Source of the DNA: Fodinisporobacter ferrooxydans
GTDB lineage: Bacteria; Bacillota; Bacilli; Tumebacillales; MYW30-H2
Direction of reading: 5' to 3'
Length of the DNA: 64,000 nt
Assembly (NCBI RefSeq): GCF_022818495.1
Contig: NZ_CP089291.1
Location: 2,931,501-2,995,500 of the forward strand
A program made the translations under genes and the position numbers. Of this stretch, positions 10,840-29,042 are shown one piece after another (position 1 is the stretch's first letter; each line of letters begins with the position of its first letter). The notes beneath the pieces are model-generated. The model did not search any database. It was not told where the DNA came from and saw only the letters and a list, made by a program, of their open reading frames with translations.

Positions 10840-10894
10840 GTAAACAATTATCAGAATCGTGTATCATTATTTATACAAGGATAGGGGGGAGGTC

Positions 10895-12142: not shown

Positions 12143-12250
12143 GCCGTATTTAGTCATGAGGCTGATGAAATTCGAAATCTCGATTTCCCACCCTTTCTTC
12201 AGAGTGGAGTTCGGATTTCCCATAGGATATCGGGGCGATCGGGATTTTCC

Positions 12251-14053: not shown

Positions 14054-14983
14054 ATGAAAGTATTGGTTACAGGTGGCGCAGGTTTTATCGGATCCAATAT
14101 AGTAGATAAGCTGGTTGAAGAAAACTATGAAGTTGTCATTATTGACAATCTAGTTGCCGGCGATAAAAACAATATCAACAAATTTGCTGCGTTTTATCGG
14201 GCAAATATAACGGATATAAAGCGATTGCGGCAAATTTTTGAGATTGAGGAGCCGGATTATGTCATTCATCAGGCTGCACAAGTCGATGTTCAGTATTCTT
14301 TACAATCTCCTATTTCAGACGCGAATGTGAACATTTTAGGTACGATTCATTTGTTGCATTGTTGTATTGATTATCATGTAAAAAAATTAATATACGCTTC
14401 CTCTGCAGCTGTCTATGGGGATCCTATTTATTTGGGAATTGATGAAAAGCATCCCACTGGGCCTATGTCCTTTTACGGGATTTCGAAATTAACTCCCGAA
14501 CATTACATACAGACATTTTCCAAACTTTATGGATTGCAATATACGATCCTTCGTTATGCAAATGTCTATGGGATTCGTCAAAATTCAAGAGGAGAGGGTG
14601 GAGTCATTTCCATCTTTATTGACCGATTATTGCAGAATGTTTCACCGGTCATTTTTGGCGATGGGGAACAAACGAGAGATTTCATCTATGTAAAGGATGT
14701 TGCAAAAGCAAATCATTTCGCTTTAACAAAAGCCAACAATGAAATCGTCAACATTGGCTGCAATCAACAGACGACAGTAAATGAAGTATTATCACAATTG
14801 AACGGTATGTTGGGAAAAGATATCAAGCCCATGTACAAGCCGACAAGACAGGGAGATATCCTTCATAGTTATTTGGATAATACAAAGGCGCGGGAATTGC
14901 TTGATTGGACACCTAAGTATTCACTGGAAGAAGGTTTAGAGGAAACAATTGCGTTTAAAAAATCAACGCTAGTACACATGTAA
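14054..14983 (+). CDS. NAD-dependent UDP-sugar 4-epimerase (GalE/PelX-like)
   Basis: This is an extended short-chain dehydrogenase of 309 residues. It has the Rossmann motif VTGGAGFIGSNI, the catalytic Ser region YASSAAVYG and the catalytic YGISK (YxxxK). It converts UDP-glucose/galactose or the N-acetyl forms. Pel polysaccharide needs UDP-GalNAc, and a UDP-GlcNAc 4-epimerase (PelX) occurs in some pel clusters, so a precursor-supply role is a reasonable inference here. ATG 14054 is preferred with AAAGGGG upstream; the open frame extends far upstream without support. It is followed by a 311-bp gap that holds a MITE-like repeat. Confidence 0.88.
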   Translation: MKVLVTGGAGFIGSNIVDKLVEENYEVVIIDNLVAGDKNNINKFAAFYRANITDIKRLRQIFEIEEPDYVIHQAAQVDVQYSLQSPISDANVNILGTIHLLHCCIDYHVKKLIYASSAAVYGDPIYLGIDEKHPTGPMSFYGISKLTPEHYIQTFSKLYGLQYTILRYANVYGIRQNSRGEGGVISIFIDRLLQNVSPVIFGDGEQTRDFIYVKDVAKANHFALTKANNEIVNIGCNQQTTVNEVLSQLNGMLGKDIKPMYKPTRQGDILHSYLDNTKARELLDWTPKYSLEEGLEETIAFKKSTLVHM

Positions 14984-15198
14984 GTGCAGTTGAAAACGTT
15001 CCGGCTCAACATGTGCATGCCAGTTTGAAAAGAAAGCAGGAATCGCTCAAACTGCAAGGGTTTTCTTCTTTTCTTTACATGCGTTCAGTGCTAAAATATT
15101 CGAGAAAAGACCTTTACAAGCGAAAAATTTTCTCTTAAAAATAAATATTTTTTATAGAATCATACACATATTGCAAAACTATACACCCAATTCACCTT

Positions 15199-15278
15199 CT
15201 CTTCAAGTGCGTGTTCAAAAAGTGGTCAAGCAATCCGCCGTGGAGTTTTGACTACTTTTTGAACATCCTCTTCAAGTG
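15199..15278. mobile_element. MITE-like repeat, short copy with target duplication
   Basis: A 58-bp element (15210-15267) has terminal inverted repeats (gtgttcaaaaagt / actttttgaacat). It is flanked by perfect 11-bp direct repeats ctcttcaagtg at 15199-15209 and 15268-15278. In reverse complement it matches both ends of the longer copy at 36573-36727, which carries about 90 bp more inside, so this copy is an internal deletion form. Confidence 0.75.
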
Positions 15279-15294
15279 ATAAGGAGCACAGGGT

Positions 15295-15714
15295 ATGAAC
15301 AAATTACGGTTCATTACAGGATTTGTTGTAGTTGTATCGTTTTTCTTTCTTATTTACGGAATATATACTATCATTTACTACCATATGAATGAACAGTCGC
15401 TTCCAGTTGCAGCAACAGCTTCCATTATTATGATCTCAGGCATTTCCCTTATTTTGTTTGATATCAGCAGAGAACAAGAATACAATCTGCATCCCATAAA
15501 TCGAGAGATTGGACAGCGTGTTCTGATACTGCGAAAAACAAGAGGACTTTCATTGCAGGAACTTTCCAATCGATCTTCGATTTCCCGGCAGACGATTTAT
15601 CGATTGGAACGGGGGAAGCATAGCATAACCGACTATGAACTCGTCAATCTCGCATATGCACTCGAAATTTCCACACTATATCTTTTAGAAGGAAAAGAAG
15701 AACGGGATGTATAG
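15295..15714 (+). CDS. Membrane-anchored XRE-family helix-turn-helix protein
   Basis: The 139-residue protein has two predicted transmembrane helices (about residues 5-28, FITGFVVVVSFFFLIYGIY; and 37-57, VAATASIIMISGISLILF). A Cro/CI-type HTH follows at residues 66-130 (LRKTRGLSLQELSNRSSISRQTIYRLERGKHSI). A membrane-bound HTH could sense envelope state and act on the polysaccharide genes that follow 27 nt downstream. The start ATG 15295 is preceded by AAGGAG. It is not a known Pel component, and the targets are unknown. Confidence 0.85.
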   Translation: MNKLRFITGFVVVVSFFFLIYGIYTIIYYHMNEQSLPVAATASIIMISGISLILFDISREQEYNLHPINREIGQRVLILRKTRGLSLQELSNRSSISRQTIYRLERGKHSITDYELVNLAYALEISTLYLLEGKEERDV

Positions 15715-15741
15715 GGATCGTTTTGTGAAAAAGGTGAGTCG

Positions 15742-17499
15742 ATGAACGATAGAATAAAAGTGCTGCTAACTACAGAAGGAACCTATCCGTTCTATCAGGG
15801 TGGAGTTAGTACATGGTGCGATTTGTTGGTAAAAGAGCTCGATGCAGTCGATTATACCATTTATACAGTCTTGGCCAATCCCTTTGTAACCCAAAAATTC
15901 AAATTGCCGAAACAATCTGAACTTTTAAAAATGCCATTGTGGGGAACAGAAGAGCCGAGTGAACATATCCCGGTTCCCTTTTCTGAAATATATCTGGCGA
16001 AAAAGCGTACGACAGACCCAGTCATTCGACAGATGTTTTTGCCGTTATTTAAAGAATTGATACTGGAAATTATCTCGGAAGAAAACCACCCGCAATATTT
16101 TGGACAGATCTTGAGTTCTTTGCATTTGTTTTTTCAGGAATATGAATATAAAGAAGCATTTAAATCGGAATTGACATGGAATACGTTCAAAGAAATCATT
16201 TTAGATGCCGTTGCCAGTCAAAAATATCGCTTAACGCAACCGGATGTTTACGGGTTGATTCAAACACTGAGTTGGGTATATCGCTTTTTGAATATTATTA
16301 ATACGCCGATTCCCAAAACCCATGTCACACATGCATCAGCGGCCGCTTTTTGCGGGATTCCCTGTGTCATTGCCAAGATGCAAAACCAGACTCCGTATTT
16401 GCTGACAGAACATGGTGTGTATTTGCGTGAACAGTATATCTCATTGACAAAAAGCGGATATTCTTCGTATATGAATACGTTTTTGCTTCGCTTTGTTCAA
16501 TCTGTCGTGAATTTGAATTATGCATTTGCGGATCAGGTTTCTCCGGTCTGTGCATACAATTCCCGTTGGGAAAAGCGTTTTGGCGTGCCGATGAAACGTG
16601 TAAAGGTGATTTATAACGGCATCGACCATCAATTATTTTCCGATGTTCAGAGGAAACCCAATTCCGATCGAACCGTTGTTATGGTTGCACGGATTGACCC
16701 GATTAAAGATATTCTGACATTTATTCGCGCTGCAGCACATGTAAGACAACAAATGCCGGATGTCAAGTTTATCATTTTTGGAAGTGTTTCCGTACCCGCA
16801 TATTATACCCAATGCCTGGATTTAAGAGATAAACTGCAACTAAACGAACAACTGATTTTTGCCGGACATACAGATACGGTCGCAGGTGCGTATCAGCGAG
16901 GCGATATAGTTGTCCTGTCAAGTATATCGGAAGCTTTTCCTTATTCTGTAGTAGAAGCCATGATGTCGGCAAGGCCGGTTGTAGCGACAGATGTAGGCGG
17001 GATTCGGGAAGCATTAGGGGATACGGGAATTTTAGTGCGCCCCAGGGATCCGGAAGGTTTGGCAGCAGGAATGACGAAATTGCTGCAAAACGCTGAATTG
17101 CGTTCTCTTATGGGGAACGAAGCGAGAGAGCGGGCACTTAACTTATTTACATTAGATAAAGTACTTGAATTGCATTTGAAAAGCTATATTCAGCTAGCTG
17201 TGAAAGCGGAAGAGAAAGTCGTTTCGTTTCGCAAATCGAATCAAAATGAAATGCAAGCGGGTCTTCAGAAGCTTTATATGGAAAAAGGCTATGCCCTTTC
17301 TGCAAATGGCTTCTATAAAGAAGCGATTGGCGAATTTCAAAATGCGATACAAGTCAATCCGAAATCTTCCAGCGTTCCTATACTTCTATCCGAGTTGGCG
17401 AAAGTTTATAATCGGTTAGGGGATTATAATCGTTCGTTTCAGGAACTGGAGAAGCTTCAAGCTTTTATTGATAATATCGACTCGATCAACATTGCCTGA
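15742..17499 (+). CDS. pelF: PelF-like GT4 glycosyltransferase with C-terminal TPR
   Basis: This is a 585-residue cytoplasmic glycosyltransferase. The N-terminal DUF3492-type opening VLLTTEGTYPFYQGGVSTWCDLLV is the mark of PelF, the UDP-sugar polymerising enzyme of Pel exopolysaccharide synthesis. The GT4 C-terminal lobe has VVMVARIDPIKDILTFIRAA, FAGHTDTVAGAYQRGDIVVLSSISEAFPYSVVEAMMSARPVVATDVGGI (shown in parts; it contains the E-x7-E-like nucleotide site). The last 70 residues (LSANGFYKEAIGEFQNAIQ, VYNRLGDYNRSFQELE) read as a TPR pair, which makes it longer than Pseudomonas PelF (about 507 residues). ATG 15742 follows AAAGGTG. A 15-bp tandem repeat array separates it from the next gene. Confidence 0.85.
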   Translation: MNDRIKVLLTTEGTYPFYQGGVSTWCDLLVKELDAVDYTIYTVLANPFVTQKFKLPKQSELLKMPLWGTEEPSEHIPVPFSEIYLAKKRTTDPVIRQMFLPLFKELILEIISEENHPQYFGQILSSLHLFFQEYEYKEAFKSELTWNTFKEIILDAVASQKYRLTQPDVYGLIQTLSWVYRFLNIINTPIPKTHVTHASAAAFCGIPCVIAKMQNQTPYLLTEHGVYLREQYISLTKSGYSSYMNTFLLRFVQSVVNLNYAFADQVSPVCAYNSRWEKRFGVPMKRVKVIYNGIDHQLFSDVQRKPNSDRTVVMVARIDPIKDILTFIRAAAHVRQQMPDVKFIIFGSVSVPAYYTQCLDLRDKLQLNEQLIFAGHTDTVAGAYQRGDIVVLSSISEAFPYSVVEAMMSARPVVATDVGGIREALGDTGILVRPRDPEGLAAGMTKLLQNAELRSLMGNEARERALNLFTLDKVLELHLKSYIQLAVKAEEKVVSFRKSNQNEMQAGLQKLYMEKGYALSANGFYKEAIGEFQNAIQVNPKSSSVPILLSELAKVYNRLGDYNRSFQELEKLQAFIDNIDSINIA

Positions 17500-17520
17500 T
17501 AAAACATCCATTCCTATAAT

Positions 17521-17625
17521 TATAGAGATTCAAAATATAGAGATTCAAAATATAGAGATTCAAAATATAGAGATTCAAAATATAGAGATTCAAAATATAG
17601 AGATTCAAAATATAGAGATTCAAAA
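17521..17625. repeat. 15-bp tandem repeat, seven perfect copies
   Basis: The unit tatagagattcaaaa is repeated seven times without a mismatch (105 bp) between the pelF stop and the ribosome binding site of the next gene. Perfect identity suggests a young, length-variable tract. It is intergenic, so copy-number change could alter spacing or mRNA structure ahead of the coiled-coil genes. Confidence 0.95.
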
Positions 17626-17644
17626 TATTGCGGGGGGTTGAAGG

Positions 17645-18058
17645 ATGGGATTTAAACGTCAACTATGGGGATTCGACCAAGAAAGTGTAAAAGAGACTAT
17701 ACAATCCATCCAGTTACAATATGAACATGAAAAACAAATGTTACTAGAAGAACTAGATTCATTGGCAAATGATAATGTGTGTCTAGAAGCGGAATTGGCG
17801 CGCCTGACGAGCTATACAAATCCGGATTCTTCTTTTCATACAGCGATTTCTGAACAACTATGGGAAGAATATGTAAAACAAACACGGGAAATTTTTAAAA
17901 AAATTTCTGAATGCAAGCAAATAGAAAAAGAATATGCGGAAATCGAGAAATCGGACATGTCTTACAGAGAGTCCTTAATGACACAGTTAGAGCATAAACT
18001 AAATGGAATGGAAACATTTCTTGACTCCTTCAAAAGGGAGGCGGAACGTGAAAAGTAA
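17645..18058 (+). CDS. Small coiled-coil protein with R-x-L-W-G-F motif
   Basis: This 137-residue protein is predicted to be mostly alpha-helical and charged, with heptad-like patterns in residues 18-55 and 75-135 (EHEKQMLLEELDSLANDN; LMTQLEHKLNGMETFLDSF). The opening FKRQLWGFDQESVKETI is similar to that of the following gene (KRRLFGYSTRQVNHHI), and both recall the GY-x-x-x-x-V opening of DivIVA-like domains. The start ATG 17645 follows GGGGGGTTGAAGG. It overlaps the next gene by 11 nt. I do not recognise a named family. A scaffold or polar-localisation role for the polysaccharide machinery is inferred from position and structure only. Confidence 0.8.
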   Translation: MGFKRQLWGFDQESVKETIQSIQLQYEHEKQMLLEELDSLANDNVCLEAELARLTSYTNPDSSFHTAISEQLWEEYVKQTREIFKKISECKQIEKEYAEIEKSDMSYRESLMTQLEHKLNGMETFLDSFKREAEREK

Positions 18059-19241
18059 ACAAATGAAGCGACGTTTGTTTGGTTATAGTACCAGACAAGT
18101 CAATCACCATATCCGCAGATTTAAACAACTGCAAGCGTTTGAACTTGAAGATTTGCAACAAAAAATCCAAGCAGCAAAAAACAAAAATCAGGAATTGCGA
18201 AAACAGATCGGGGATCTTCAGGCGCAAATGCACCAACGTACCATGCTGCAAGAACTTGCAGAATTATTACACCAACGATGCAATGAAACGATTTTGGCCA
18301 TTCGCAGCCAAGGAGAGTTGGAAAAATCAGAAATCGAGAATGCCATACAAATCAAAAAAATTGAACATGAAAATAATATGAAAAAAATGGAACAACAGAC
18401 CAACTACTATAATGGCTTCCTGCAATCATTTTTGCAAGAATTTTTTCATTCGATTGGGAACATTATGAATCGTGAAGTTTCTGATGTTTTAAAGGTACAA
18501 TTAAAAGAAATTGCTGCAACAATTTCCTATGATCAATTGGAATTAAATGAAAAATTATTAGGCGAAGATATCGTACTTGAAGAAGATGATCCTGTTTTCC
18601 ATTCCACAAATGTCATTCGATTCAAACTTCAGTCCTTAAAAGATTTACAAAATGCTCAACAATTGGAAAAACAAAATTCAGTCGTCTGTATCGACCCGGA
18701 TCATGATGAAATGGTCTTATCTGAGGAACCGATGGATGAAGAAACAACCGACAGTCATGACGAACTGCCGGAAGTAAAGCACTCGCAATTTTGGGGAGAT
18801 ATTCAAGCATATATCCAGGATACCTCCAGCAAGACTTCAGTTTCTGCAAACGTTGAAACGAACATAAGCAATGTTGCAGAAAAATTGCAAATAGCGGAAC
18901 AACCGAGTATAACAACCGATTCAGGCGGTTGGGAGCAACCGCAAATGGATCCATTGCCAATCGACGATACATTTGACAAGAAAGAGATTCAATCGGATGC
19001 CAAAGAATCGACAAAAGAGAGCCATGCTTTATCGGAAGAAATCGAAGCCGTAAGAAATCGTTATATTGTTGGGAAGTTGTCGGGAATCGACCTCTATGAT
19101 ACGAATGGGCAGTTAATTATCGGTAAAAATCAATCCATTACCAAAGAAGTAGTGAGTCAGGCAGATCGAGCTGGGAAACTTGCGGATTTAATTGTCCATA
19201 TGTTGCTGCCGGGTATGAGGGATTCCAATGACAAAGACTAA
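18048..19241 (+). CDS. Long coiled-coil protein with C-terminal PRC-barrel-like domain
   Basis: The 397-residue product starts KRRLFGYSTRQVNHHIRRF, resembling the preceding protein, then has a coiled coil at about residues 20-140 (LEDLQQKIQAAKNKNQELRK ...). An acidic, low-complexity linker follows. The C-terminal 60 residues (YIVGKLSGIDLYDTNGQLIIG ... AGKLADLIVHMLLP) look like a PRC-barrel-type beta domain. GTG 18048 has GGGAGGCG at ideal spacing; the open frame begins earlier at 18003. It overlaps both neighbours, so it is coupled to the PelG-like gene. The tandem pair between pelF and pelG-like genes is not part of known pel operons as I know them. Confidence 0.78.
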   Translation: MKSKQMKRRLFGYSTRQVNHHIRRFKQLQAFELEDLQQKIQAAKNKNQELRKQIGDLQAQMHQRTMLQELAELLHQRCNETILAIRSQGELEKSEIENAIQIKKIEHENNMKKMEQQTNYYNGFLQSFLQEFFHSIGNIMNREVSDVLKVQLKEIAATISYDQLELNEKLLGEDIVLEEDDPVFHSTNVIRFKLQSLKDLQNAQQLEKQNSVVCIDPDHDEMVLSEEPMDEETTDSHDELPEVKHSQFWGDIQAYIQDTSSKTSVSANVETNISNVAEKLQIAEQPSITTDSGGWEQPQMDPLPIDDTFDKKEIQSDAKESTKESHALSEEIEAVRNRYIVGKLSGIDLYDTNGQLIIGKNQSITKEVVSQADRAGKLADLIVHMLLPGMRDSNDKD

Positions 19242-20841
19242 TATTGTTTCTTTTTCCTATTATCATGATCAAAAAAACAAGCTGCAAGAGTTGGCTGATG
19301 AAATTACGCATAGTTCGAAATATCTGGAAGATCGCTATCAAATTGCAGCGCTTTTGGAATCGATGGGCTGGACGGATGATCTGGCATATAAAACATTTGG
19401 GGTAGAAGATGTTTTTGCATTGGCGGCGGAAGTTTGGGAATTGATTCAGCAAAGAGTTGCCGTATCCCCGTATTCGCCGCAAGAAAAAGGACAAGCATGG
19501 CATATGTTTCTGGAATTGTTGAAAAGTTTTTTAAGAGGGATGATCTTTGCTTTACCTATGTCGATTTCCGTGCTCGCTATGATTACATTAAAATTTTCGC
19601 TTTGGTCCTACGAATATTTCACATTGGAATTGGCAACAAGTATCGCCATCGGTACGATTTTAAGTTTCATTACGGTGGGCGGTTTTACGCAAGCGATAGC
19701 CAGGCGCGGTTTTTTCTATTTATACCAAGGCTACTATAACATGGGCAGGCAAATTACATTCTTTTTCATTCGTTGGGGGTATATTTTTTGTATCGCCATG
19801 TGTTGTTTTATCTATTTGTTTAATTTTGTGTTTAATATATACCCGCAAAACATGTTTGTTTATATTGCACTCTATTTTTTCTTTTTAAACTCGATTTGGT
19901 TATCTGTTACGGTCATGTATATATTGCGCAGGGAATTGACATTTACAGGATTGATCATTGCAGGGATTGGACTCGTGTATATTTTGAAAACTTGGGTTGG
20001 ATTGGATATCATTCGATCCCAACTTTTCGCTATTTTCCTCGTATCCGGTATTGGAATGGCATTATCGCTCTATTATTTTAAACACGAGGAAAAGAAGGGG
20101 GAGCGAGGAATTGCCCCAAAGCTCCCAAGAGTCTCGTATACCGTATATGCAGTTCTACCGTATTTCGCTTATGGTTTTCTTTATTTCCTGTTTTTGTATA
20201 TTGATCGAGTGGTTGCATGGTCGACAAATCAAGAATATATGCCGTATTTTATCTGGTTTCGCGGAGATTATGAATTAGGGCTCGACTATGCTTTATTGGT
20301 CCTGATTATTCCTCTTGGTTTCAGCGAGGTTTTGCTTAACAAATTTATGTTGGACATCGAAGTGTTTCAAAAGCGTTTTTGGGCTTTTGAAACAGATAAA
20401 ATGAATCAAACATTTTTAACAAAATATTATCGAATTCTATTTGTGATTATCACTATATCAGTAGTAAGCGCAATAGTAACAATATTCTTCCTGCTATACC
20501 TCAATCAAAGATATTACGAGGTAGCGGGAAAATATCTAATAACTGGCCATGTAACATATTTTACACTTTTTGTGTCTTGTATTGGATATGTAATTTTGGC
20601 AATTGGACTCATGAATGCAGTGATTCTCTTTGCTTTGTCGCAACCGCATTTCATTAATCGTGTACTTATTTTAGCGATTCTTGCCAATATGGGCATTGGA
20701 TTTGTACTGAGTCGCTGGGTTCATTATAGTTGGGCTGTGTTTGGATTGTTGGCAGGTTCTATACTGTTTTCGGTTCTTTCCACAAAACAAGTAAGAAATA
20801 TTATCGTAAAACTCGACTATTATTTATACGCTGCTTCGTAG
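19228..20841 (+). CDS. pelG: PelG-like polytopic membrane protein (Pel transport/assembly)
   Basis: The 537-residue protein has a soluble N-terminal part of about 90 residues and then about 12 hydrophobic helices, an arrangement seen in PelG, the inner-membrane MOP-superfamily member that works with PelF to polymerise and export Pel. Family-like stretches include GFLYFLFLYIDRVVAWS and DYALLVLIIPLGFSEVLL. Similarity to Pseudomonas PelG is recalled rather than measured, so the symbol is tentative. ATG 19228 overlaps the coiled-coil gene by 14 nt. Context directly downstream of pelF and the coiled-coil pair supports the call. Confidence 0.68.
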   Translation: MTKTNIVSFSYYHDQKNKLQELADEITHSSKYLEDRYQIAALLESMGWTDDLAYKTFGVEDVFALAAEVWELIQQRVAVSPYSPQEKGQAWHMFLELLKSFLRGMIFALPMSISVLAMITLKFSLWSYEYFTLELATSIAIGTILSFITVGGFTQAIARRGFFYLYQGYYNMGRQITFFFIRWGYIFCIAMCCFIYLFNFVFNIYPQNMFVYIALYFFFLNSIWLSVTVMYILRRELTFTGLIIAGIGLVYILKTWVGLDIIRSQLFAIFLVSGIGMALSLYYFKHEEKKGERGIAPKLPRVSYTVYAVLPYFAYGFLYFLFLYIDRVVAWSTNQEYMPYFIWFRGDYELGLDYALLVLIIPLGFSEVLLNKFMLDIEVFQKRFWAFETDKMNQTFLTKYYRILFVIITISVVSAIVTIFFLLYLNQRYYEVAGKYLITGHVTYFTLFVSCIGYVILAIGLMNAVILFALSQPHFINRVLILAILANMGIGFVLSRWVHYSWAVFGLLAGSILFSVLSTKQVRNIIVKLDYYLYAAS

Positions 20842-20863
20842 CAAAAGGGGGGGTAGCAGCGAA

Positions 20864-22858
20864 TTGCTTTCATCCTATTCTTCATTGCAAAATCAACTGT
20901 ACCATTCGAGCCATTTTGCTTTTGCGCTTTTAGTATTGATGGTCATTGTTCCGCGATTTATTTTTACGCAAACAAGCAGTGATCGATTGGAACAATTTTT
21001 TTCAAACTTTTTACGCATCATATTATTGTATATCATTATCGGGTATGTTTTGGTTCTTACCAAATTATTCGAAGTGTTATCGATTTTTGTGACGCTGGCA
21101 TTGATTGCTTCGAGCAGATATTTGCGACCGTCATCCACAGCAGAGCGAGAGCGTATCTTTCAAAACATTGCCGTGAATTTCTATAATTTCCTAGATGCTG
21201 GTTTTTTCTTGCGGGATAATTGGAAAAAGTGGAGAAAAATGAATGTTATGAATGAAACGTTCAAAATAACGAGAGCAAATATGCACACGAAACTTGTTCT
21301 GCCAATCGTAATTCTATTTGTATTCGCATGCTCTGCATATTTGCGTTTTTACGATTCATGGATGTATGCAGCACCGGGGATGGCTGACGGATATGTGACA
21401 TTGGCATGGATGAAGTATATTGACGCAAGAATTTTGTTTCATGATGGCATCTATCCGCAAGGTTATGATATTGTCTTGTCCTATTTGCATAAATTTGCGG
21501 CAATCGATGCTTTGTATGTTTTAAAATATGCCGGTCCACTCAATGGGATTTTGACAATGCTTGGCTTTTATTTTGTTTTTTCAAGACTATTCAAGAATTC
21601 GATTGCAGGTATCATTGCGATTGCTGTTTATGGGTTGGCGGGCGCAGGTCTATTTGGGGATGACTGGATGCGCCAGGCTTCCACGAACTCGCAAGAATTT
21701 GCATTTGTATTCATTTTCCCGACATTATATTTTTCTTTACGCTATGCAGTTGAGAACAGAAGATCCGATTTGATCAATGTTTTTGCGGGCTGGACAATCA
21801 TTGGCCTTGTTCATTCCATCGGGTATGCATTTGTGAGTCTTGGAATTGGTCTTATCATGCTGCTTATTGTTTTGACTCAGGCAAATAACGGTTGGAAAAC
21901 ATGTTTGCACCTTGCCGGTGCCGGCGGAATCAGCCTTGTAATCTCGCTTTTGCCTTTAATCATTGGCCTTTTGATGCACAAAGAATTACATCAGTCTTCG
22001 GAAAAGTTTTTGTTGGGTGAAGTGAATGTTTCGCCTCCCCACTTGCATATTTGGGACATGATCGGATTAAGCGCACTGTTTCTCATTCTCGCATGTTCGG
22101 TTGTATGTAAAAAAACAAAAACGGAACAACTCTATGATCGATTTGCTATTTTGTTTGGCATCCTCATATTTTTGTTGTATGAATTTGGTCCGTCGATCAC
22201 TCATAGCGAGGTACTGGAAGCACGTTCACGGAGTTTATGGGTTTTGACGATACTTTTTGTGATTGGCGTCGGCTGGAAAAGTTTCTGGTATCTAACAGAA
22301 AAATTGCCATATCAAAAATGGATACAGTTGTTGGTCAGTGTCGGTTTGATCTGTCTTCTGATTCAATCATCCCGGTTTCAACCGATCATTCCATACAAAA
22401 TGGAATGGGAAAGCGGGGTTGAGCAATATTTGCGAATTGCTTCGCTGCATCCCAATAAAACATGGGTGATATTCTCTCACAATGAAGGATATGATTTGGC
22501 ATTGGGCAAGGGCTATCAGCAATTTATTGAAACGCTTTTGAAAGACTACGACCCTTCACAACCAGGACTTACTCGCTTTGGCCAAATGAAGCGGGATCGC
22601 AACATTCCAAACAATATCTATATCTACGAAGAGAAGAATGTATTTCAAGTGAGCAAGCACAATTCCATATATCCCGTTCTGGAAAAAGAATACAAGAAGC
22701 GGGAGCAGGAAATGGCACAATTGAAAAAATGGATTCACACATATGAAACGCATAATAAAGATTTGCAAACGTTTTACGATGATCCGAATTTACGCATCTA
22801 TTCGATTCATGTCCCAGAGACGAAACAGGAGCGACAACGGAAAATATGGGGCCATTGA
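20864..22858 (+). CDS. Polytopic membrane protein, GT-C glycosyltransferase-like
   Basis: This 664-residue protein has about 13 hydrophobic helices and a soluble C-terminal tail of about 150 residues. A DSWMYAAPGMADGYVTLAWMKY segment (split by a loop) precedes ARILFHDGIYPQGYD, which resembles the first periplasmic loop of lipid-linked GT-C transferases and STT3/ArnT-like proteins. No exact family is recognised. TTG 20864 is used because AAAAGGGGGGG lies 8 nt upstream. Position between the PelG-like and deacetylase genes suggests polymer modification or polymerisation at the membrane; this is inference. Confidence 0.65.
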   Translation: MLSSYSSLQNQLYHSSHFAFALLVLMVIVPRFIFTQTSSDRLEQFFSNFLRIILLYIIIGYVLVLTKLFEVLSIFVTLALIASSRYLRPSSTAERERIFQNIAVNFYNFLDAGFFLRDNWKKWRKMNVMNETFKITRANMHTKLVLPIVILFVFACSAYLRFYDSWMYAAPGMADGYVTLAWMKYIDARILFHDGIYPQGYDIVLSYLHKFAAIDALYVLKYAGPLNGILTMLGFYFVFSRLFKNSIAGIIAIAVYGLAGAGLFGDDWMRQASTNSQEFAFVFIFPTLYFSLRYAVENRRSDLINVFAGWTIIGLVHSIGYAFVSLGIGLIMLLIVLTQANNGWKTCLHLAGAGGISLVISLLPLIIGLLMHKELHQSSEKFLLGEVNVSPPHLHIWDMIGLSALFLILACSVVCKKTKTEQLYDRFAILFGILIFLLYEFGPSITHSEVLEARSRSLWVLTILFVIGVGWKSFWYLTEKLPYQKWIQLLVSVGLICLLIQSSRFQPIIPYKMEWESGVEQYLRIASLHPNKTWVIFSHNEGYDLALGKGYQQFIETLLKDYDPSQPGLTRFGQMKRDRNIPNNIYIYEEKNVFQVSKHNSIYPVLEKEYKKREQEMAQLKKWIHTYETHNKDLQTFYDDPNLRIYSIHVPETKQERQRKIWGH

Positions 22859-22891
22859 CAAATTTTCAAAAGATAAAGGAGGTGAAACCGA

Positions 22892-23758
22892 TTGATAAAT
22901 GCATTGACAGTTGATGTCGAGGACTGGTATCAAACAAGTGACTTTCATTTTCCGATTGCAAACTGGCACCGATACGAAGACCGTGTTGTTGAAAATACGA
23001 GAGTTTTGTTGGAATTATTTTCGTTCTATCGGGTGAAAGGGACATTTTTTACGCTTGGATGCATAGCGGAGCGACATCCGGATCTTGTAGAAAAAATTGC
23101 GGCGGATGGCCATGAAATAGGTTCACATGGGGGCTGGCATCAAATGTTGCACGAGATGTCATTCGAACAAATCCGTGAAGATTTGTTTCAATCAAAAAAA
23201 ATCCTGGAACAAATCAGCGGAAAGCCTGTTCATATGTTTCGTGCGCCGTCTTGGTCGATGTCTCCACAGCGCTATCAAGTGTTACAGGTGCTTGAGGAAT
23301 TAGGTTACCTGTATGACTCCAGCATGCAGCCGTTTCGAACTCCATTATCGGGAATTAAAGGGATTCCCATACACCCGTTTCACCCCGTATTGGATGGAGA
23401 AGCATTGCATCTCGTTGAATTTCCGCCGACCGTTTTGAACATTGGTTGTATGAATATTCCTTTTTCCGGAGGGTTTTATTTGCGGGCATTGCCTGGGAAA
23501 TTTGTTGAATGGGCGTTAAAACGTGTCAATGAAGAAAGGTCGGGAATGATCTATGTACATCCCTGGGAGATTGACATGGATCAACCCCGTTTGGAAGCAT
23601 CACCAATCATCCGGTTTGTGCATTATTACAATTTGGAAACGATGAAAAACAAATTGGAGCGGTTATTGCAAGTATTTACATTTTCCCCTTTAGGCGAGGT
23701 TATAAGAAATCATCATTCATTCCCGAAGGTGCCGCTGTATTCGAATGGCAATCGATAG
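22892..23758 (+). CDS. Polysaccharide deacetylase (NodB homology, CE4)
   Basis: The 288-residue enzyme begins INALTVDVEDWYQ, the opening typical of exopolysaccharide-associated CE4 deacetylases. It has the metal-site motif GHEIGSHGGWHQMLHEM, RAPSWSMSPQR (motif with conserved Arg and Trp) and IYVHPWEID for the C-terminal His motif. The C-terminal part matches the DUF3473-type extension. It would remove N-acetyl groups from the polymer; Pel is partly deacetylated, by PelA in Pseudomonas. No signal peptide is visible, so its location is unclear. TTG 22892 lies 7-8 nt after AAGGAGGTG. Confidence 0.85.
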   Translation: MINALTVDVEDWYQTSDFHFPIANWHRYEDRVVENTRVLLELFSFYRVKGTFFTLGCIAERHPDLVEKIAADGHEIGSHGGWHQMLHEMSFEQIREDLFQSKKILEQISGKPVHMFRAPSWSMSPQRYQVLQVLEELGYLYDSSMQPFRTPLSGIKGIPIHPFHPVLDGEALHLVEFPPTVLNIGCMNIPFSGGFYLRALPGKFVEWALKRVNEERSGMIYVHPWEIDMDQPRLEASPIIRFVHYYNLETMKNKLERLLQVFTFSPLGEVIRNHHSFPKVPLYSNGNR

Positions 23759-23775
23759 GAAGTTGTGATTCACAT

Positions 23776-25236
23776 ATGTATGAAAGAAAAATAAAATTCA
23801 AAAAAATTCTTTTTTCAAAACACGTAGGTGAACTGACGCTAATCAACGCATTATTGGCCATTGTCGCATTTTTAAAAGATATGGTGTTTGCAGCGTATTA
23901 TGGCACATCCAGTACTGCAGATCTTTTCACGATCGCGTTTTTTCTGCCGGATACCATCGGCAATAATGTAGTAGGTTCTGCCCTTGTAGTTGCATGTGTC
24001 CCGATTTTTTCAACTCTTGCAGCAAGCGGCCACTCGTTTCGATTGGAAAACTTGATTCGAAAAATCCTGCTGCAAAGCGTTGTTGTAAGTGCAACCATTT
24101 CTTTTATAATTATCTTGTTCAGACACAGGATCTATCATTGGTTGGGGAGTGAAATACCCGCCTCATCTGCTGCCATGTTGCAATCTTTCGTTTTGCTATT
24201 GTTGCCAACATTGACGATTTTTTCGCTCGTAGCGATTTTTACCGCTATTTTGCAAGCGAAAGAAGAATTTTACGCACCTGCATGTGCGCCCGTACTATTT
24301 AATGGAATTTTCTTGATTGTGGTACTGGTATTAGTCATTGTCAAAATCAGTCGGGAAACAGGAGGAATCGTAACTGCCGCTGGAGTGCTCGTTGCAGCGC
24401 TGGCCATGTTGTTTCTGCTTCTCTATCGTATTTACTTTTATGATAGAAGAAAAAGAAATGGGCTTTTATTACAACGTGTAAATGGTAGACAAAAAAGGAT
24501 AGATGGCGCAGAATGTAACCAAATGGAAGGGAATCGGCAGAAGGAAATTTCAATGCGCTCGCGGAATGATATCAATTCCATCTATCAAGTATTTGTGCCG
24601 TATGTTTTGATCCTGCTTAGCATGCAAGCCGTATATGGCGTGGAGCGGCATATCGCTGCCACTATGCCTGCAGGGACAATTGCAGCATTGCAGTATGCGT
24701 TTCGGATTTCCCAGTTTCCGAATTGGGTGTTTGTTTCAGCGATTACAACCATTCTCTTGCCTAAACTGGCGAAAGCACAAGTTGCAAGGGATGAAAAGGA
24801 ATTTCGCAACATTTTTTATAAAGGAATACGGGAATTGGCAGTCATTGCAGTACCGATTTCCTTAGGAATTTTTTTGTTTCGAAAACCGATATTGGAACTA
24901 TTATTTGAACACGGCGCATTCAACGATTCATCTTTACTGGCAACATCCGCCGTATTGAAAGGATATTCCTTATCCATTCTTGGACAATCCATTTCTGCAC
25001 TGCTGTTGCGCTTTTTTATTGCGATTCGACAAATGATGATACCAACGGGAATTTTTATTTTTACATCATGCATCAATATATATTTTGATTTTCATTGGAA
25101 AAGTTACTTCAAAACCGCTACTTTTGGATATGGAGCGGCAACAGCATCCTTCATTAATGTCATATGTATGTGGATGTACTTTATGTATCTGGAAAAGAAA
25201 AACCAATCGATTTTGCATGGGCAGGTGAGTGGATGA
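23776..25236 (+). CDS. MurJ/MviN-like flippase (Wzx type)
   Basis: The 486-residue polytopic protein of the MOP superfamily has an N-terminal segment ALLAIVAFLKDMVFAAYYGTSSTADLF, the MurJ/MviN opening with the GTSxxAD motif. Also seen is FRISQFPNWVFVSAITTILLPKLA, which corresponds to the family's conserved helix 8 region. It would translocate a lipid-linked sugar across the inner membrane. In this cluster it more likely serves the exopolysaccharide than peptidoglycan, an inference from context. The stop TGA overlaps the ATG of the next gene. The charged insert around residues 225-260 is unusually long. Confidence 0.8.
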   Translation: MYERKIKFKKILFSKHVGELTLINALLAIVAFLKDMVFAAYYGTSSTADLFTIAFFLPDTIGNNVVGSALVVACVPIFSTLAASGHSFRLENLIRKILLQSVVVSATISFIIILFRHRIYHWLGSEIPASSAAMLQSFVLLLLPTLTIFSLVAIFTAILQAKEEFYAPACAPVLFNGIFLIVVLVLVIVKISRETGGIVTAAGVLVAALAMLFLLLYRIYFYDRRKRNGLLLQRVNGRQKRIDGAECNQMEGNRQKEISMRSRNDINSIYQVFVPYVLILLSMQAVYGVERHIAATMPAGTIAALQYAFRISQFPNWVFVSAITTILLPKLAKAQVARDEKEFRNIFYKGIRELAVIAVPISLGIFLFRKPILELLFEHGAFNDSSLLATSAVLKGYSLSILGQSISALLLRFFIAIRQMMIPTGIFIFTSCINIYFDFHWKSYFKTATFGYGAATASFINVICMWMYFMYLEKKNQSILHGQVSG

Positions 25237-25964
25237 AACCGTTCTTGCTTTTAATCCCCGCTTATAATGAAGAATTAAATATCGGAAATGTGCTGGAAGA
25301 CATCCTTGCAACAAAGCTCCCTGTCGACATCGTAGTAGTAAATGATGGTTCAACGGATCATACGGAGGAGACGGCAGGTATGTTCCCTGTTACTGTTTTG
25401 ACGCATCCCTGCAATCTTGGATATGGAGCTGCACTGCAAACAGGATATTTGTATGCGGTCAAGAACAAGTATTCCTATGTCATCCAATTTGATGCGGACG
25501 GTCAGCATAATCCCGGAGATGTGTCAATTCTGATGGAGGAACTTGACAAAGGAACGGTTGATATCGTAATGGGTTCTCGTTATATGGAAGGCGCAACATC
25601 TTTTCCCAGCAGTCCTTTTAAAAAAGCAGCCGTATACTTTTTTCGGCAATTAATTTATTCGTTAACAAAAAAAGAAATCTTGGATCCTACTTCCGGACTT
25701 CGCGGCATGTCTCGGCCAGTGGTCCAGTATCTGGCAAGTTTTGAACATTTTCCAAGTGATTTTCCGGATGCGGATCTTTTAATTCAAATACTCTTGAAAA
25801 ATTTTAAAATCAAGGAAGTTCCTGTCCATATGCGGGAACGGGCAGCAGGAACGAGTATGCATAAGGGACTCCGACCGATTTTCTATATGGTTAAGGTCTT
25901 GTTAAGTTTGCTTGTCTTTCTGATCCGTTATAAAGTAAGTAAGCGGGTGAGCATTTATGAATAG
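25233..25964 (+). CDS. GT2 family glycosyltransferase (dolichyl-phosphate mannose synthase-like)
   Basis: The 243-residue GT-A enzyme has PFLLLIPAYNEELNIGNVL, the acidic VVVNDGSTDHTEE, and the metal-binding VIQFDADGQHNP (DxD), followed by MGSRYMEG and DPTSGLRGMSR, all typical of DPM1-like enzymes. It probably makes polyprenyl-phosphate sugars. ATG 25233 overlaps the flippase stop (ATGA). The next gene, a DUF2304 membrane protein, is the usual partner of this GT2 type. Confidence 0.88.
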   Translation: MKPFLLLIPAYNEELNIGNVLEDILATKLPVDIVVVNDGSTDHTEETAGMFPVTVLTHPCNLGYGAALQTGYLYAVKNKYSYVIQFDADGQHNPGDVSILMEELDKGTVDIVMGSRYMEGATSFPSSPFKKAAVYFFRQLIYSLTKKEILDPTSGLRGMSRPVVQYLASFEHFPSDFPDADLLIQILLKNFKIKEVPVHMRERAAGTSMHKGLRPIFYMVKVLLSLLVFLIRYKVSKRVSIYE

Positions 25965-26319
25965 TGTTTTAAAAGTGTTCATATTTTGTTGTGGAATTCT
26001 ATTTTCCTTGTCTATCGTTTCTTTGTTGTTAAAAAAACGAATTAATGAACGGAATTCCATTGCGTGGTTGTTGGCAGCGATTTGCATATTGGTGTTTGCA
26101 GCGAATCCGGAAATTTTAAATGAATTGGCTGAAAAGTTTGGAATCAGCTATCCGCCATCTTTGTTGTACCTGTTTTCCAATATGACTTTATTACTTTTAG
26201 TACTATACCAATCGACCCAAATTTCTATTCTGAATGAAAAACTAAAAAATCTTACACAATATGTGGCTCTCTTGAAACCTGCCAGAGAAAGCCGGAATAT
26301 AAACAATGAACAGTCCTAA
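25957..26319 (+). CDS. DUF2304 membrane protein
   Basis: The 120-residue protein has three hydrophobic helices (FIFCCGILFSLSIVSLLL; SIAWLLAAICILVFA; LLYLFSNMTLLLLVLY) and a charged tail with coiled-coil tendency (LNEKLKNLTQYVALL). This is the DUF2304 pattern, found next to polyprenyl-phosphate glycosyltransferases, where it is thought to anchor or support the enzyme. It overlaps the GT2 gene by 8 nt. Confidence 0.8.
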   Translation: MNSVLKVFIFCCGILFSLSIVSLLLKKRINERNSIAWLLAAICILVFAANPEILNELAEKFGISYPPSLLYLFSNMTLLLLVLYQSTQISILNEKLKNLTQYVALLKPARESRNINNEQS

Positions 26320-26367
26320 TCATGTGACGGATTGCTATTTCCTGATAGCAGCAGAAAGGGGGACATC

Positions 26368-28248
26368 ATGACTGTTTTTTCAAATTGGGCCGCAAACGCA
26401 ATACATCTGGAGTGGATGATTTCTGCCGTTCTCGCGTGTCTTTTCCTTCTTCTTCTCATTCTCGTAATACAATATTTGCATGGCAGAACCTACAAATTGC
26501 AGTTGCAACAAACGCTATTTCTGCTGAAGCAATTTCAACCGGCTGCCGGAATCGAAAATTATTTGCAAACTCTTCTTGAAGAAAGCAGGAAAATTATTGA
26601 AACACCCGTTTCGGCTTTTTACATGTTTGATGACAAAAATGATCACTTTGTTCTAAAAGCGGTTCGCAATCAAACAAGTGCACAAGGACAGGTCGGGCCT
26701 TCATACAGCGGTTTGATACCCTATGCGAAAGAAGTGTATCAACCACCTTTACGATTGCCGAAAGATGCGCTAACCAAACAACTTTCATTTATTAAAGACG
26801 GCGAAGTGCCATTAGTATCCATACCCATAAAAGGAGGAGCAGGTCTGGTACGCTTGGGGCCCATTTCCAAACTTTCCCGTTCCAAGCGATTGAAGCTTGA
26901 GTATTTATATACCACTACTTCCGAATTGCTTTCCGTTCTGGTAGAAACAGAGAATTTAAAAACTCAAACCGAGATTGTGTCAACATCCGGAAACGCACTG
27001 CATTTCATTTCAACAATGGCTCTCAATACACAAGCATTGATTTTGAAAACATTCAGCATGACGAGGAGCACATTGAATCTGGCTGGCGGATTCATCCTGT
27101 CAAAACAAGAAAATCGCCTGTCGATCATGGAAACAACAAGACTTCCGGTTGAATTGGAGCGGAAACTGAGAAAAAATCCGCAATTTTTGGTGAAACTTTG
27201 GAATACGGCCCAACACGTGGAACCGATTCAAATTCACCGGAATCATCCCCAATATGGGGAAATGGCACTGGAGCTAATGGCGAATGAGACAAGCACATGG
27301 TTGCTTGTGAAGATGTATGCAAAAGAAGTGCAAGTGCTGTTTGCCTTTTTGAATCAAGAACGGAACCCAGGGGATTTGGATGATCATCAGAAAATCACAG
27401 CGATACGGTCAATGGCATATGGCATTCCTTTTATGATAAAAAATCAAATCCAATTGCAATCGAATACACAGTTTTATATTTCATTAATGAAACGATTGAT
27501 GCAAACGATTGATAATCTGAATCCTTATACAGTTGGCTATTCGGACATGATGAGCCGCTTCTCCATCGTGATTGCGCAAGAATTGGGAATCCCTGCAAAG
27601 GAGATTGAAACGATTGCATTAGCGGCGTATCTAAGCAATATCGGTGTGATTGGATTATCGGAAGAACTGTATTTAAAAGACGGAACCTATAATGAAGAAG
27701 AGTATGAAATCATGAAACTGCACGCAGAAGTCGGGGCGAATGTGGTCGAGATGATGACAGGAGATACAACGGTTGCGAATCTGATCCGCTATCATCACGA
27801 GCGGATGGATGGCAACGGGTATCCATTCGGGATATCCGGTGAACAGATTCCGATCGGTTCCCGAATCATTGCAGTTGTCCAAACGTTTTTGGCGAAAATT
27901 AACGGGAGGAGATATAGAGCTCCGTTATCCTTTGAACGGTCTTTGGCTCTTTTGCAAGCAGCTGCGGGAACCCAACTGGATCCGAAAGTAGTCGATGCTT
28001 TCATTCATTGGTTCCAAAGCAAAGGATCCCATCCCCACGCGGCAAACCGTTCACTTGGCCCCTGTTGGGAGATGTGCTGTGTTCCATCCGCCATCTGTTC
28101 GACATGTCCTGCGTTTCAACAAACGACAAAAAATTGTTGGGAATTCCCGAATAACAATTGTGAAGCACATGGCAAATCCTGTGAAACCTGTTTTGTCAAA
28201 AGTGAAGTTGCCTCACGCTATGCAACACCGATAGAAAAAGCGAATTAA
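26368..28248 (+). CDS. Membrane GAF protein with degenerate HD-GYP and two-CW domains
   Basis: This 626-residue protein starts with one transmembrane helix (ISAVLACLFLLLLILVIQYL). Two GAF-like regions follow, then an HD-GYP region at about residues 385-550. The metal-binding HD motif is replaced: LSNIG stands where LHDIG is expected near residue 420. The later HAEVGANVV and HHERMDGNGYP remain, but the Asp in the RI-x-x-V-x-D motif is Gln (RIIAVVQTF). It is therefore likely a non-hydrolysing c-di-GMP sensor. The C-terminal 60 residues hold ten Cys with CWEMCC and NCWEF, a two-CW-type domain. ATG 26368 follows AAAGGGGG. Its stop overlaps that of the convergent GH114 gene by 4 nt. Confidence 0.83.
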   Translation: MTVFSNWAANAIHLEWMISAVLACLFLLLLILVIQYLHGRTYKLQLQQTLFLLKQFQPAAGIENYLQTLLEESRKIIETPVSAFYMFDDKNDHFVLKAVRNQTSAQGQVGPSYSGLIPYAKEVYQPPLRLPKDALTKQLSFIKDGEVPLVSIPIKGGAGLVRLGPISKLSRSKRLKLEYLYTTTSELLSVLVETENLKTQTEIVSTSGNALHFISTMALNTQALILKTFSMTRSTLNLAGGFILSKQENRLSIMETTRLPVELERKLRKNPQFLVKLWNTAQHVEPIQIHRNHPQYGEMALELMANETSTWLLVKMYAKEVQVLFAFLNQERNPGDLDDHQKITAIRSMAYGIPFMIKNQIQLQSNTQFYISLMKRLMQTIDNLNPYTVGYSDMMSRFSIVIAQELGIPAKEIETIALAAYLSNIGVIGLSEELYLKDGTYNEEEYEIMKLHAEVGANVVEMMTGDTTVANLIRYHHERMDGNGYPFGISGEQIPIGSRIIAVVQTFLAKINGRRYRAPLSFERSLALLQAAAGTQLDPKVVDAFIHWFQSKGSHPHAANRSLGPCWEMCCVPSAICSTCPAFQQTTKNCWEFPNNNCEAHGKSCETCFVKSEVASRYATPIEKAN

Positions 28249-29042
28249 TCCAGAGTATTGTAGCCGCTTGAAGCAACAAGATGAATAAATCCCAAGCTTC
28301 GAGCGGTCTTTTTATGAATCGGCCGGTTTTCTTCAGAAACGCAAAAAATCTGTATGCCCTGTTTTTGTAGATTCTTCATGCGAGTCAATTGATATATCAC
28401 CCATTCATCCGCGATCTGTTTTCCGTTCCAATCTTCCCATAAAATCCCATGCAAAAACGATCCTACTTCATCGAGTTGATCAAATCCCCGGTTTTGGATC
28501 AGCAGCAGATTGGGGAATGTTCGGATCATTTCGGTTAAGAATTCTTTATAAGCAAGCCCCATTTCTTGGCGCACATTGTGTTCCATGACGGAGTGATCGA
28601 TATCATCAACCGTGTCGAGAAAAATACCGCTCAGATGTTTACTGGCGATTTGCTGGTGAATCTCTTCTATTAAAATTTTGCGATAGTTTTCACTGCGCAA
28701 ATCCATCAAATAAGATCCCCATTGTGGGAAAAAACGAGGAGCTCCATGCTCTAAAAAATAGTCATTTTTTTTCACGGAATTTCTGCGCATTTCATTCCAA
28801 TGGGGTGTTTGCATGATGGATACATAACCAAACAGGAACGGCTGCTCCGGTTTGGCCTGCCGCAGCTCATGAACTTGTGTTTTGCTGATCTGCCGGGGTT
28901 CAAGGATGATTAAATCATATGCGGTCAATTTGGTGAGAATGGTCTGCTCAATAGCATGATAATAGATGATGAAACTGTTTACATTTCCAAGAGGCCCCTT
29001 GTTTTTTTTCGGTAAGAGATGATGGAAAATGTTTCGATACAC
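28245..29042 (-). CDS. GH114-like (TM1410/PelA-hydrolase-like) glycoside hydrolase
   Basis: The 265-residue protein has the GH114 barrel pattern: YDLIILEPRQIS, PFLFGYVSIMQTP, LSGIFLDTVDDIDHS (active-site Asp region), LLLIQNRGFDQLDEVGSFLHGILWEDW. GH114 enzymes cleave alpha-1,4-galactosaminogalactan; the hydrolase domain of PelA belongs here. No signal peptide or membrane helix is seen, so it may act inside the cell or leave by another route. GTG 29042 follows AAGGGGC. The gene is convergent to the cluster and overlaps the HD-GYP gene at the stops, so it is separately controlled. Confidence 0.75.
   Translation of the reverse strand: MYRNIFHHLLPKKNKGPLGNVNSFIIYYHAIEQTILTKLTAYDLIILEPRQISKTQVHELRQAKPEQPFLFGYVSIMQTPHWNEMRRNSVKKNDYFLEHGAPRFFPQWGSYLMDLRSENYRKILIEEIHQQIASKHLSGIFLDTVDDIDHSVMEHNVRQEMGLAYKEFLTEMIRTFPNLLLIQNRGFDQLDEVGSFLHGILWEDWNGKQIADEWVIYQLTRMKNLQKQGIQIFCVSEENRPIHKKTARSLGFIHLVASSGYNTLD

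Follow-up and report, generated by a model that had tools for sequence, protein, structure and literature searches.

A candidate second class of Gram-positive Pel-type synthase locus, found in Fodinisporobacter ferrooxydans and recurrent across Bacillota

Does a Pel-like gene cluster in Fodinisporobacter ferrooxydans represent an ordinary pel locus with bystander genes, a machinery for some other glycan, or a distinct class of Pel-type system? The cluster occupies positions 14,054–29,042 of a 64,000-nucleotide stretch of the genome (contig NZ_CP089291.1, positions 2,931,501–2,995,500), hereafter the window; the host genome is a single contig of 4.86 Mb. Thirteen open reading frames (ORFs) were verified there in the window's ORF list. 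Twelve lie on the forward strand and encode, in order, an epimerase, a membrane helix-turn-helix (HTH) protein, a PelF-type polymerase, two coiled-coil proteins, a PelG-like protein, a glycosyltransferase (GT) of GT-C type, a CE4-type deacetylase, a MurJ-like flippase, a GT2 enzyme, a DUF2304 protein and an HD-GYP protein; a GH114-family gene converges on them from the reverse strand. The original prediction, made from the DNA letters alone, called the locus Pel-like and its gene set unusual, a description that holds: PelF exceeds its curated cut-off, and most of the added genes are not matched in ten ordinary pel loci. With moderate confidence, we interpret the cluster as belonging to a second class of Pel-type synthase loci in Gram-positive bacteria, the polymer of which would be decorated, spatially targeted and controlled by cyclic di-GMP (c-di-GMP).

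A synteny survey, a check that the original prediction had proposed for DUF3492 proteins in Bacillota and that was made here around relatives of the PelG-like gene, showed that much of the gene set recurs. Genome scanning with an 11-member alignment of the PelG-like protein, an approach that depends on two exact peptide patterns, recovered 66 loci, all from Bacillota by title except one labelled 'bacterium' (L086) and one on a 4-kb contig titled Smithella (L077), the latter probably a binning error. Named hosts include Paenibacillus, Tumebacillus, Desulfosporosinus and Sulfobacillus; Tumebacillus, which carries the locus, belongs to the same order as the host of the window. Profiles of the locus families, iterated over the ORFs of the 66 loci, matched a GT-C protein in 65, PelF in 64, coiled-coil protein 2 in 58, HD-GYP in 54, GT2 in 53, coiled-coil protein 1 in 44, GH114 in 43, CE4 in 33, DUF2304 in 30, MurJ in 29 and the epimerase in 25, counts in which the coiled-coil profiles may cross-match and the GT2 and epimerase profiles may take in unrelated kin. 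All 63 loci not cut off upstream contain PelF, in 17 of them on the opposite strand (three truncated loci were excluded). Of the 61 loci that extend more than 2.3 kb downstream (five were excluded), 60 have GT-C as the first family gene to follow the PelG-like gene. The same profiles found no coiled-coil, GT-C, MurJ, DUF2304 or HD-GYP match in ten ordinary Bacillota pel loci, some of them on short contigs. The layout thus differs from that of ordinary pel loci, but its recurrence in numerous families of Bacillota shows that it is no isolated curiosity; an unrelated chance cluster is rejected on the same ground.

The polymerase places the locus within the Pel family. The product of the pelF gene (15,742–17,499) is a GT4 enzyme that scores 161.5 bits against the PelF model NF038011 (curated cut-off 100), with a DUF3492 domain (137.7 bits, 8e-40) and a C-terminal extension matching TPR_2 (1e-4). 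Two glutamates, E397 and E405, which we take to be those of the EX7E motif, are kept in all 62 aligned rows, the window's among them. TPR_2 was found in 19 of the 32 PelF members scanned, again including the window's. (Family scans comprised the window protein together with 31 of 61 ORFs for PelF, 61 of 65 full-length ORFs for the PelG-like protein, 56 of 92 for GT-C, 31 of 31 for coiled-coil protein 1, 33 of 67 for coiled-coil protein 2 and 26 of 45 for HD-GYP.) Ordinary PelFs from nine loci measure 422–491 amino acids, whereas 61 of the 67 ORFs assigned to PelF in this class measure 577–683. In an IQ-TREE phylogeny of Bacillota DUF3492 groups, from which 5 of those 67 ORFs were left out as short or low-scoring, the 63 sequences from this class and the 9 ordinary PelFs fall on two sides of one branch with support of 100/100; the stem branches between them are very long (3.9 and 4.5), and one ordinary row has a long branch. 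The PelF of this locus is a separate clade inside the PelF family.

The putative exporter is highly divergent in its profile matches. The PelG-like gene (19,228–20,841) overlaps coiled-coil gene 2 by 14 nucleotides, and its product carries an extra, conserved N-terminal helical domain of about 95 amino acids (19,228–19,512), for which the best Pfam match, RHH_7 at 0.063, lies under cut-off and no further copy was found in the host genome. The window protein itself matched no Pfam model at E 0.1 and no NCBIfam model, and plasmid records yielded no match to it. Among 62 family members, 19 match the Pfam PelG model PF16933 at E ≤ 0.01 (best 1.4e-7) and none matches MurJ or MATE models at that threshold; when ten picked members were scanned singly, five matched PelG, one of them over the cut-off (31.2 versus 29 bits). 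Compared profile to profile, the family aligned with true PelG over 385 columns at P 4.9e-5 (67.8%); comparison with MurJ gave nothing (P 0.28), as did true PelG against MurJ. A predicted model (predicted local distance difference test score, pLDDT, 85.5) adopts the MATE/WzxE/MurJ fold over residues 86–537, with Z scores from 25.2 to 14.2 among the 50 matches listed: MATE at 25.2 (root-mean-square deviation, rmsd, 4.0 over 412 residues), WzxE at 20.9 (4.4 over 381) and MurJ at 18.8 (4.5 over 380). This fold alone cannot decide between exporters, but the count of 19 versus none, together with the empty comparison with MurJ, speaks against just another MurJ or MATE protein. Because of the relatives' PelG matches and the predicted structure, we assign the protein, with a moderate margin of doubt, to a far branch of PelG within the MOP superfamily. 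The original prediction had named failure against PelG profiles, combined with relatives in unrelated loci, as what would overturn it; the window protein does fail, whereas 19 of 62 relatives match and the genes stay together.

Both classes were then counted in a sample of 398 Bacillota genomes that includes the host. Eight carry the PelG-like protein, 12 have a PelG match over cut-off and 19 have DUF3492 over cut-off. As one of the 12 PelG matches (G294) is the PelG-like protein itself, 11 ordinary PelG genomes remain, and the 19 DUF3492 genomes are exactly these 11 and the 8 PelG-like ones, with none carrying both; a further genome (G293) has two DUF3492 matches, both under cut-off. A tentative extension of our interpretation is that the locus represents an ancient class that replaces the ordinary one in about two-fifths of PelF-bearing Bacillota (8 of 19), aimed by DivIVA-like proteins, switched by a dead HD-GYP protein and decorated from a lipid carrier. 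The available part of one account states that Pel may be uncommon in Paenibacillus apart from P. mucilaginosus (PMC9956331), and 'Paenibacillus' is absent from the main text of PMC7112168, the supplementary tables of which cover 161 organisms, some of which may belong to the class described here. Since at least eight named Paenibacillus species besides P. mucilaginosus carry this class, searches made with ordinary pel genes might overlook it. If our interpretation is true, surveys based on PelG underestimate how common Pel-type matrix polymers are in Gram-positive bacteria.

How might such a locus work? In the mechanism we propose, PelF would polymerize UDP-N-acetylgalactosamine (UDP-GalNAc), or a close sugar, in the cytoplasm, with the linked epimerase supplying it; the predicted backbone would be alpha-1,4-linked and partly deacetylated, like the product of the Gram-positive Pel locus. 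The PelG-type protein would pass the growing chain through the membrane, and the CE4 deacetylase and GH114 hydrolase would trim it outside, as PelA does for Pel. A GacI-like GT2 enzyme and its DUF2304 partner may charge undecaprenyl phosphate with a sugar; after flipping by the MurJ-like protein, this lipid-linked sugar may be transferred by the GT-C enzyme to the polymer as it emerges, forming a side group. In place of PelD, the membrane HD-GYP protein would act as the c-di-GMP switch, and in place of PelE, the TPR tail of PelF would offer an interaction surface, while the two DivIVA-like proteins might tether the complex where the membrane is curved, as at the septum or a pole.

The supply and trimming genes belong to the families that the original prediction had assigned to them, as profile searches confirmed; the same is true of the MurJ-like, GT2, DUF2304 and membrane HTH proteins. 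The epimerase (14,057–14,983) is of the NAD-dependent sugar-nucleotide type (PF01370, 220.6 bits, 2.7e-65) and is a candidate for supply of UDP-N-acetylglucosamine (GlcNAc) or UDP-GalNAc. The deacetylase (22,892–23,758) matches PF01522 (77.3 bits, 1.2e-21) and DUF3473 (PF11959, 125.1 bits, 2.3e-36) and falls just under the cut-off of TIGR03006 (271.2 versus 276.2 bits); its D8 is kept in 31 of 32 rows and H79 and H83 in all 32. It is a DUF3473/XrtA-type CE4 protein and only a possible orthologue of PelA(DA), the deacetylase of CE26/CBM114 type (CE26 in PMC13254593). The GH114 hydrolase (28,245–29,042, reverse strand) matches PF03537 (39.0 bits, 6.8e-10) and keeps D143 and E203 in 40 of 40 rows. 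Family membership suggests catalytic roles for these conserved residues in both enzymes. The small membrane protein with a C-terminal HTH_3 domain (15,295–15,714; 37.8 bits, 2e-9) is a candidate regulator; phmmer at E 1e-5 found no relative of it in the 66 loci, and it is therefore apparently lineage-specific.

Side-chain addition would fall to four genes. The GT-C gene (20,864–22,858) encodes a protein without a Pfam match at E 0.1, and its predicted model (pLDDT 93.1, predicted template modelling score 0.91) bears out the GT-C-like label of the original prediction: by structure prediction it has a GT-C membrane fold of the oligosaccharyltransferase type, with best matches to STT3 (8age, Z 25.8, rmsd 7.5 over 446 residues), AglB (3waj, Z 23.9), ArnT (5f15, Z 19.9, rmsd 5.6 over 437 residues) and PglB (3rce, Z 18.4), and also to PMT and arabinosyltransferases. 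D175, near-invariant in 57 members, is a plausible catalytic acid of the first extracellular loop. The MurJ-like flippase (23,776–25,236; PF03023, 212.5 bits) is the best of four genes over that model's cut-off in the host genome. It overlaps by 4 nucleotides the GT2 gene (25,233–25,964; PF00535, 97.5 bits, 1e-27), which in turn overlaps by 8 nucleotides the gene for the DUF2304 membrane protein (25,957–26,319; PF10066, 78.1 bits, 7e-22). DUF2304 is typical of GacJ-like proteins, encoded directly downstream of a GacI homologue, and the pair makes lipid-linked GlcNAc (PMC8327497, in the part available); GacI, J, K and L add GlcNAc side chains (PMC8807736, likewise). By analogy, the DUF2304 partner makes the GT2 protein a candidate GacI-like polyprenyl-phosphate-sugar synthase, and, taken with the GT-C and MurJ genes, this pair may constitute a single side-chain module comparable to GacIJKL, with a candidate gene for each role.

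The variability of this module is what a simpler explanation has in its favour: that the locus makes ordinary Pel in all but sequence, an unbranched, partly deacetylated GalNAc polymer, with GT-C, GT2, DUF2304 and MurJ serving another glycan and the coiled coils acting as scaffolds without targeting. PelF, the PelG relative, deacetylase, GH114 hydrolase and epimerase do amount to Pel functions, and the full set of GT2, DUF2304, MurJ and CE4 occurs together in 20 of 66 loci. However, the GT-C gene, often present in two or three copies per locus, comes next after the PelG-like gene among the family genes too consistently for a bystander, and the PelF and PelG-like proteins stand deeply apart from ordinary ones. 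We consider this explanation unlikely, although it is the strongest of the alternatives.

Less probable again is a different product, in which a lipid-linked heteropolysaccharide, cell-wall glycan or protein-linked glycan is assembled with GT-C as the key transferase and PelF as one chain enzyme among others. Oligosaccharyltransferases are the best fold matches of the GT-C model, a MurJ-type flippase is present, and the stem branches to ordinary PelF are very long, all of which such a product would accommodate. Against it, ArnT, PMT and arabinosyltransferases, which use polyprenyl-phosphate sugars, match the GT-C model too. GH114 and the deacetylase, moreover, suit a galactosamine polymer, and no Wzy, LCP or initiating transferase turned up among the ORF clusters present in at least 5 of the 66 loci at the script's thresholds. 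Beyond the window's own gene families, only two clusters recur to that extent. One, in 36 loci (L090:16407–17582 and 35 others) and not in the window's locus, encodes an ATP-grasp ligase that might attach an amino acid or a comparable group to a sugar; one member matches CPSase_L_D2 (5.6e-14) and ATPgrasp_Ter (1.5e-12). The other, in five loci (L104:19238–20242 and four others), encodes a membrane protein of about 334 amino acids with an ACSG stretch, presumably reminiscent of exosortases and of interest since the deacetylase is XrtA-type.

A sporulation or spore-coat polysaccharide locus, which the spore-forming lineages of most hosts might suggest, is very improbable: Spore_III_AE occurs in 9 of 11 PelG-like genomes searched (host included) against 4 of 11 ordinary PelG genomes, but two hosts (G221 and G318) lack it, leaving a strict sporulation link unsupported, the contrast within the phylum sample is small (6 of 8 versus 4 of 11), and the HD-GYP protein points to c-di-GMP control.

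For the second-class interpretation, that HD-GYP protein is the proposed switch. Its gene (26,332–28,248) encodes a membrane protein with a GAF-like region, an HD-GYP domain (HD_5, 118.3 bits, 3.8e-34) and a Cys-rich tail (28,060–28,230; covered by 26 of 48 rows) that is possibly metal-binding. GAF models match few family members (GAF_2 3, GAF_3 2 and GAF 1 of 27) and not the window's. At eight sites that we take to be the key HD-GYP positions, the window protein has Y403, S435, N436, H464, H488, H489, D493 and Q517; S435 and N436 thus replace the H-D dyad and Q517 a metal-ligand D. The HHExxDGxGYP signature is kept, as YHHERMDGNGYP in the window, and its residues are kept in 44–46 of the 45–46 rows covering each column. 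In an alignment that left out ORFs under 350 amino acids, and in which 2 of 48 rows do not cover the sites, 24 of the 46 scorable rows have lost the dyad, the window's included, and 17 share its full pattern. The degenerate state named in the original prediction therefore applies to the window and about half of the family. With 13 GGDEF matches in its genome, the host probably makes c-di-GMP, for which the window protein is a candidate receptor. No GGDEF match was found among the locus proteins scanned. Nor did PelD_GGDEF (PF16963) match in the host genome; that model was over cut-off in 1 of 398 genomes, on another contig than pelG, and therefore misses Gram-positive PelDs and is useless as a marker here.

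The two coiled-coil proteins, noted as such in the original prediction, can be described more closely: by profile likeness they are DivIVA-like. The DivIVA model PF05103 matches 11 of 32 members of the coiled-coil protein 1 family (17,645–18,058 in the window) at E ≤ 0.01, the best at 4.9e-11 and 43.1 bits. When ten picked members were scanned one by one, nine matched at E ≤ 0.1, with four exceeding the cut-off; all nine matches start at profile position 8–10, corresponding to the N-terminal segment. Coiled-coil protein 2 (18,063–19,241) combines a DivIVA-like N terminus with a variable linker and a conserved C-terminal domain of about 65 amino acids (19,040–19,230; YIVGK ... LII type), the best conserved part of the protein, which has no Pfam family match at a useful level. 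Among 34 members, the DivIVA model was found in 3 and PRC-barrel in 2. When all host proteins were ranked against DivIVA, the true DivIVA came first (168 bits), coiled-coil protein 2 second (16.9) and coiled-coil protein 1 fifth (14.0). By hhalign, coiled-coil proteins 1 and 2 compare with the host DivIVA at 94.5% (P 7.9e-8) and 81.9%, and with each other at 97.9%.

Several results weigh against our interpretation. The Pfam PelG model finds nothing in the host genome even at E 10, a larger alignment weakens the comparison of PelG-like with true PelG proteins (P 3.9e-4, 35.7%), and a profile from ten ordinary PelGs finds no PelG-like protein at E 0.01, which speaks against close kinship. Foldseek template modelling (TM) scores to solved structures are modest, at 0.28–0.58 for the PelG-like model and 0.38–0.46 for the 22 GT-C matches at E ≤ 0.001. 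The epimerase scores 222.7 bits against GalE (TIGR01179), below the equivalog cut-off of 262.3. CE4, MurJ and DUF2304 each occur in only about half of the loci, and 13 of the 66, several of them cut short, have none of GT2, DUF2304, MurJ and CE4; decoration may therefore be optional. Twenty-two of 46 HD-GYP rows keep the dyad and seven look intact at all eight sites, so that some may be phosphodiesterases. Finally, both of the window's coiled-coil proteins lie under the DivIVA cut-off, and other coiled-coil genes rank between and below them.

From the HTH gene to the HD-GYP gene, the genes are mostly overlapping or separated by short gaps. The exception is a 145-nucleotide gap after pelF with seven copies of a perfect 15-bp repeat (17,521–17,628), which might influence how the genes that follow are expressed or translated; the corresponding gap is under 60 nucleotides in 36 of 45 relatives measured. 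Promoter and terminator counts are close to those of shuffled sequences (54 versus 46.2 and 15 versus 13.8). Comparison with relatives places the likely start codon of coiled-coil gene 2 near 18,063 (longest ORF, 18,003) and that of the GT2 gene at 25,233 (longest ORF, 25,164). Outside the locus, the ORF at 30,111–32,102 joins ABC-transporter ATPase and solute-binding protein domains in a ModC–ModA-like fusion. At 10,859–13,819, a Peripla_BP_5 ORF precedes a sigma-54 activator ORF, and a third frame lies between and overlaps; a frameshift may have split what was a single regulator.

Among known systems, the nearest comparison is pelDEA(DA)FG of Bacillus cereus ATCC 10987 (PMC7112168, in the part available). 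The two share a PelF-family polymerase, exporter, deacetylase, flanking hydrolase and epimerase, and a membrane protein in which a c-di-GMP enzyme domain has degenerated. They differ in that our locus has an only remotely related PelG and an HD-GYP domain where B. cereus has a degenerate GGDEF, and adds the PelF–TPR fusion, two DivIVA-like proteins, GT-C and polyprenyl-sugar genes; no PelD was recognized with PF16963, and no PelE, for which no profile was run. Section 6 of the same source places Roseburia pel loci within larger capsule or teichoic-acid-like clusters and reports a dual cyclase/phosphodiesterase gene in a bifidobacterial variant. The available parts of PMC7112168 and PMC12345266 show Pseudomonas aeruginosa pelABCDEFG to share the polymerase, exporter, deacetylase and hydrolase functions; beyond the differences already given for B. 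cereus, it has the outer-membrane PelB and PelC, not expected in Gram-positives. No described class of this kind appeared among the literature matches listed, so far as their accessible text goes, and DivIVA aiming, a dead-HD-GYP switch and lipid-carrier decoration do not figure in the accessible text of PMC7112168, PMC7112194, PMC12345266, PMC9956331 or PMC13254593; this fits the view that the control and finishing parts differ from the pel loci described there. If our interpretation holds, evolution has here rebuilt the c-di-GMP switch from a different degenerate enzyme.

Two further systems resemble parts of the locus. Like members of the DivIVA/GpsB family, its coiled-coil proteins have an N-terminal basic–hydrophobic–G–Y/F/L motif followed by a coiled coil (a loose pattern present in 30 of 31 coiled-coil protein 1 ORFs and 53 of 69 coiled-coil protein 2 ORFs); unlike them, they have weak profile matches, their own C-terminal parts and an exopolysaccharide-locus setting. 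The available part of a study of heparosan synthase membrane localization in Corynebacterium glutamicum mentions DivIVA (PMC12170474), and DivIVA-aided placement of a polysaccharide synthase may thus have been engineered before; the present locus, if correctly interpreted, would show exopolysaccharide synthesis being positioned in nature by DivIVA-like proteins. With GacI–GacJ–GacK–GacL of the streptococcal group A carbohydrate it shares a GT2 beside a DUF2304 protein, a candidate flippase and a membrane glycosyltransferase, a likeness of gene arrangement rather than of GacI, GacK or GacL sequence. There the module stands beside a rhamnan pathway, whereas here it stands beside a PelF polymerase, which, if our interpretation is right, would make the product a synthase-type polymer carrying side chains.

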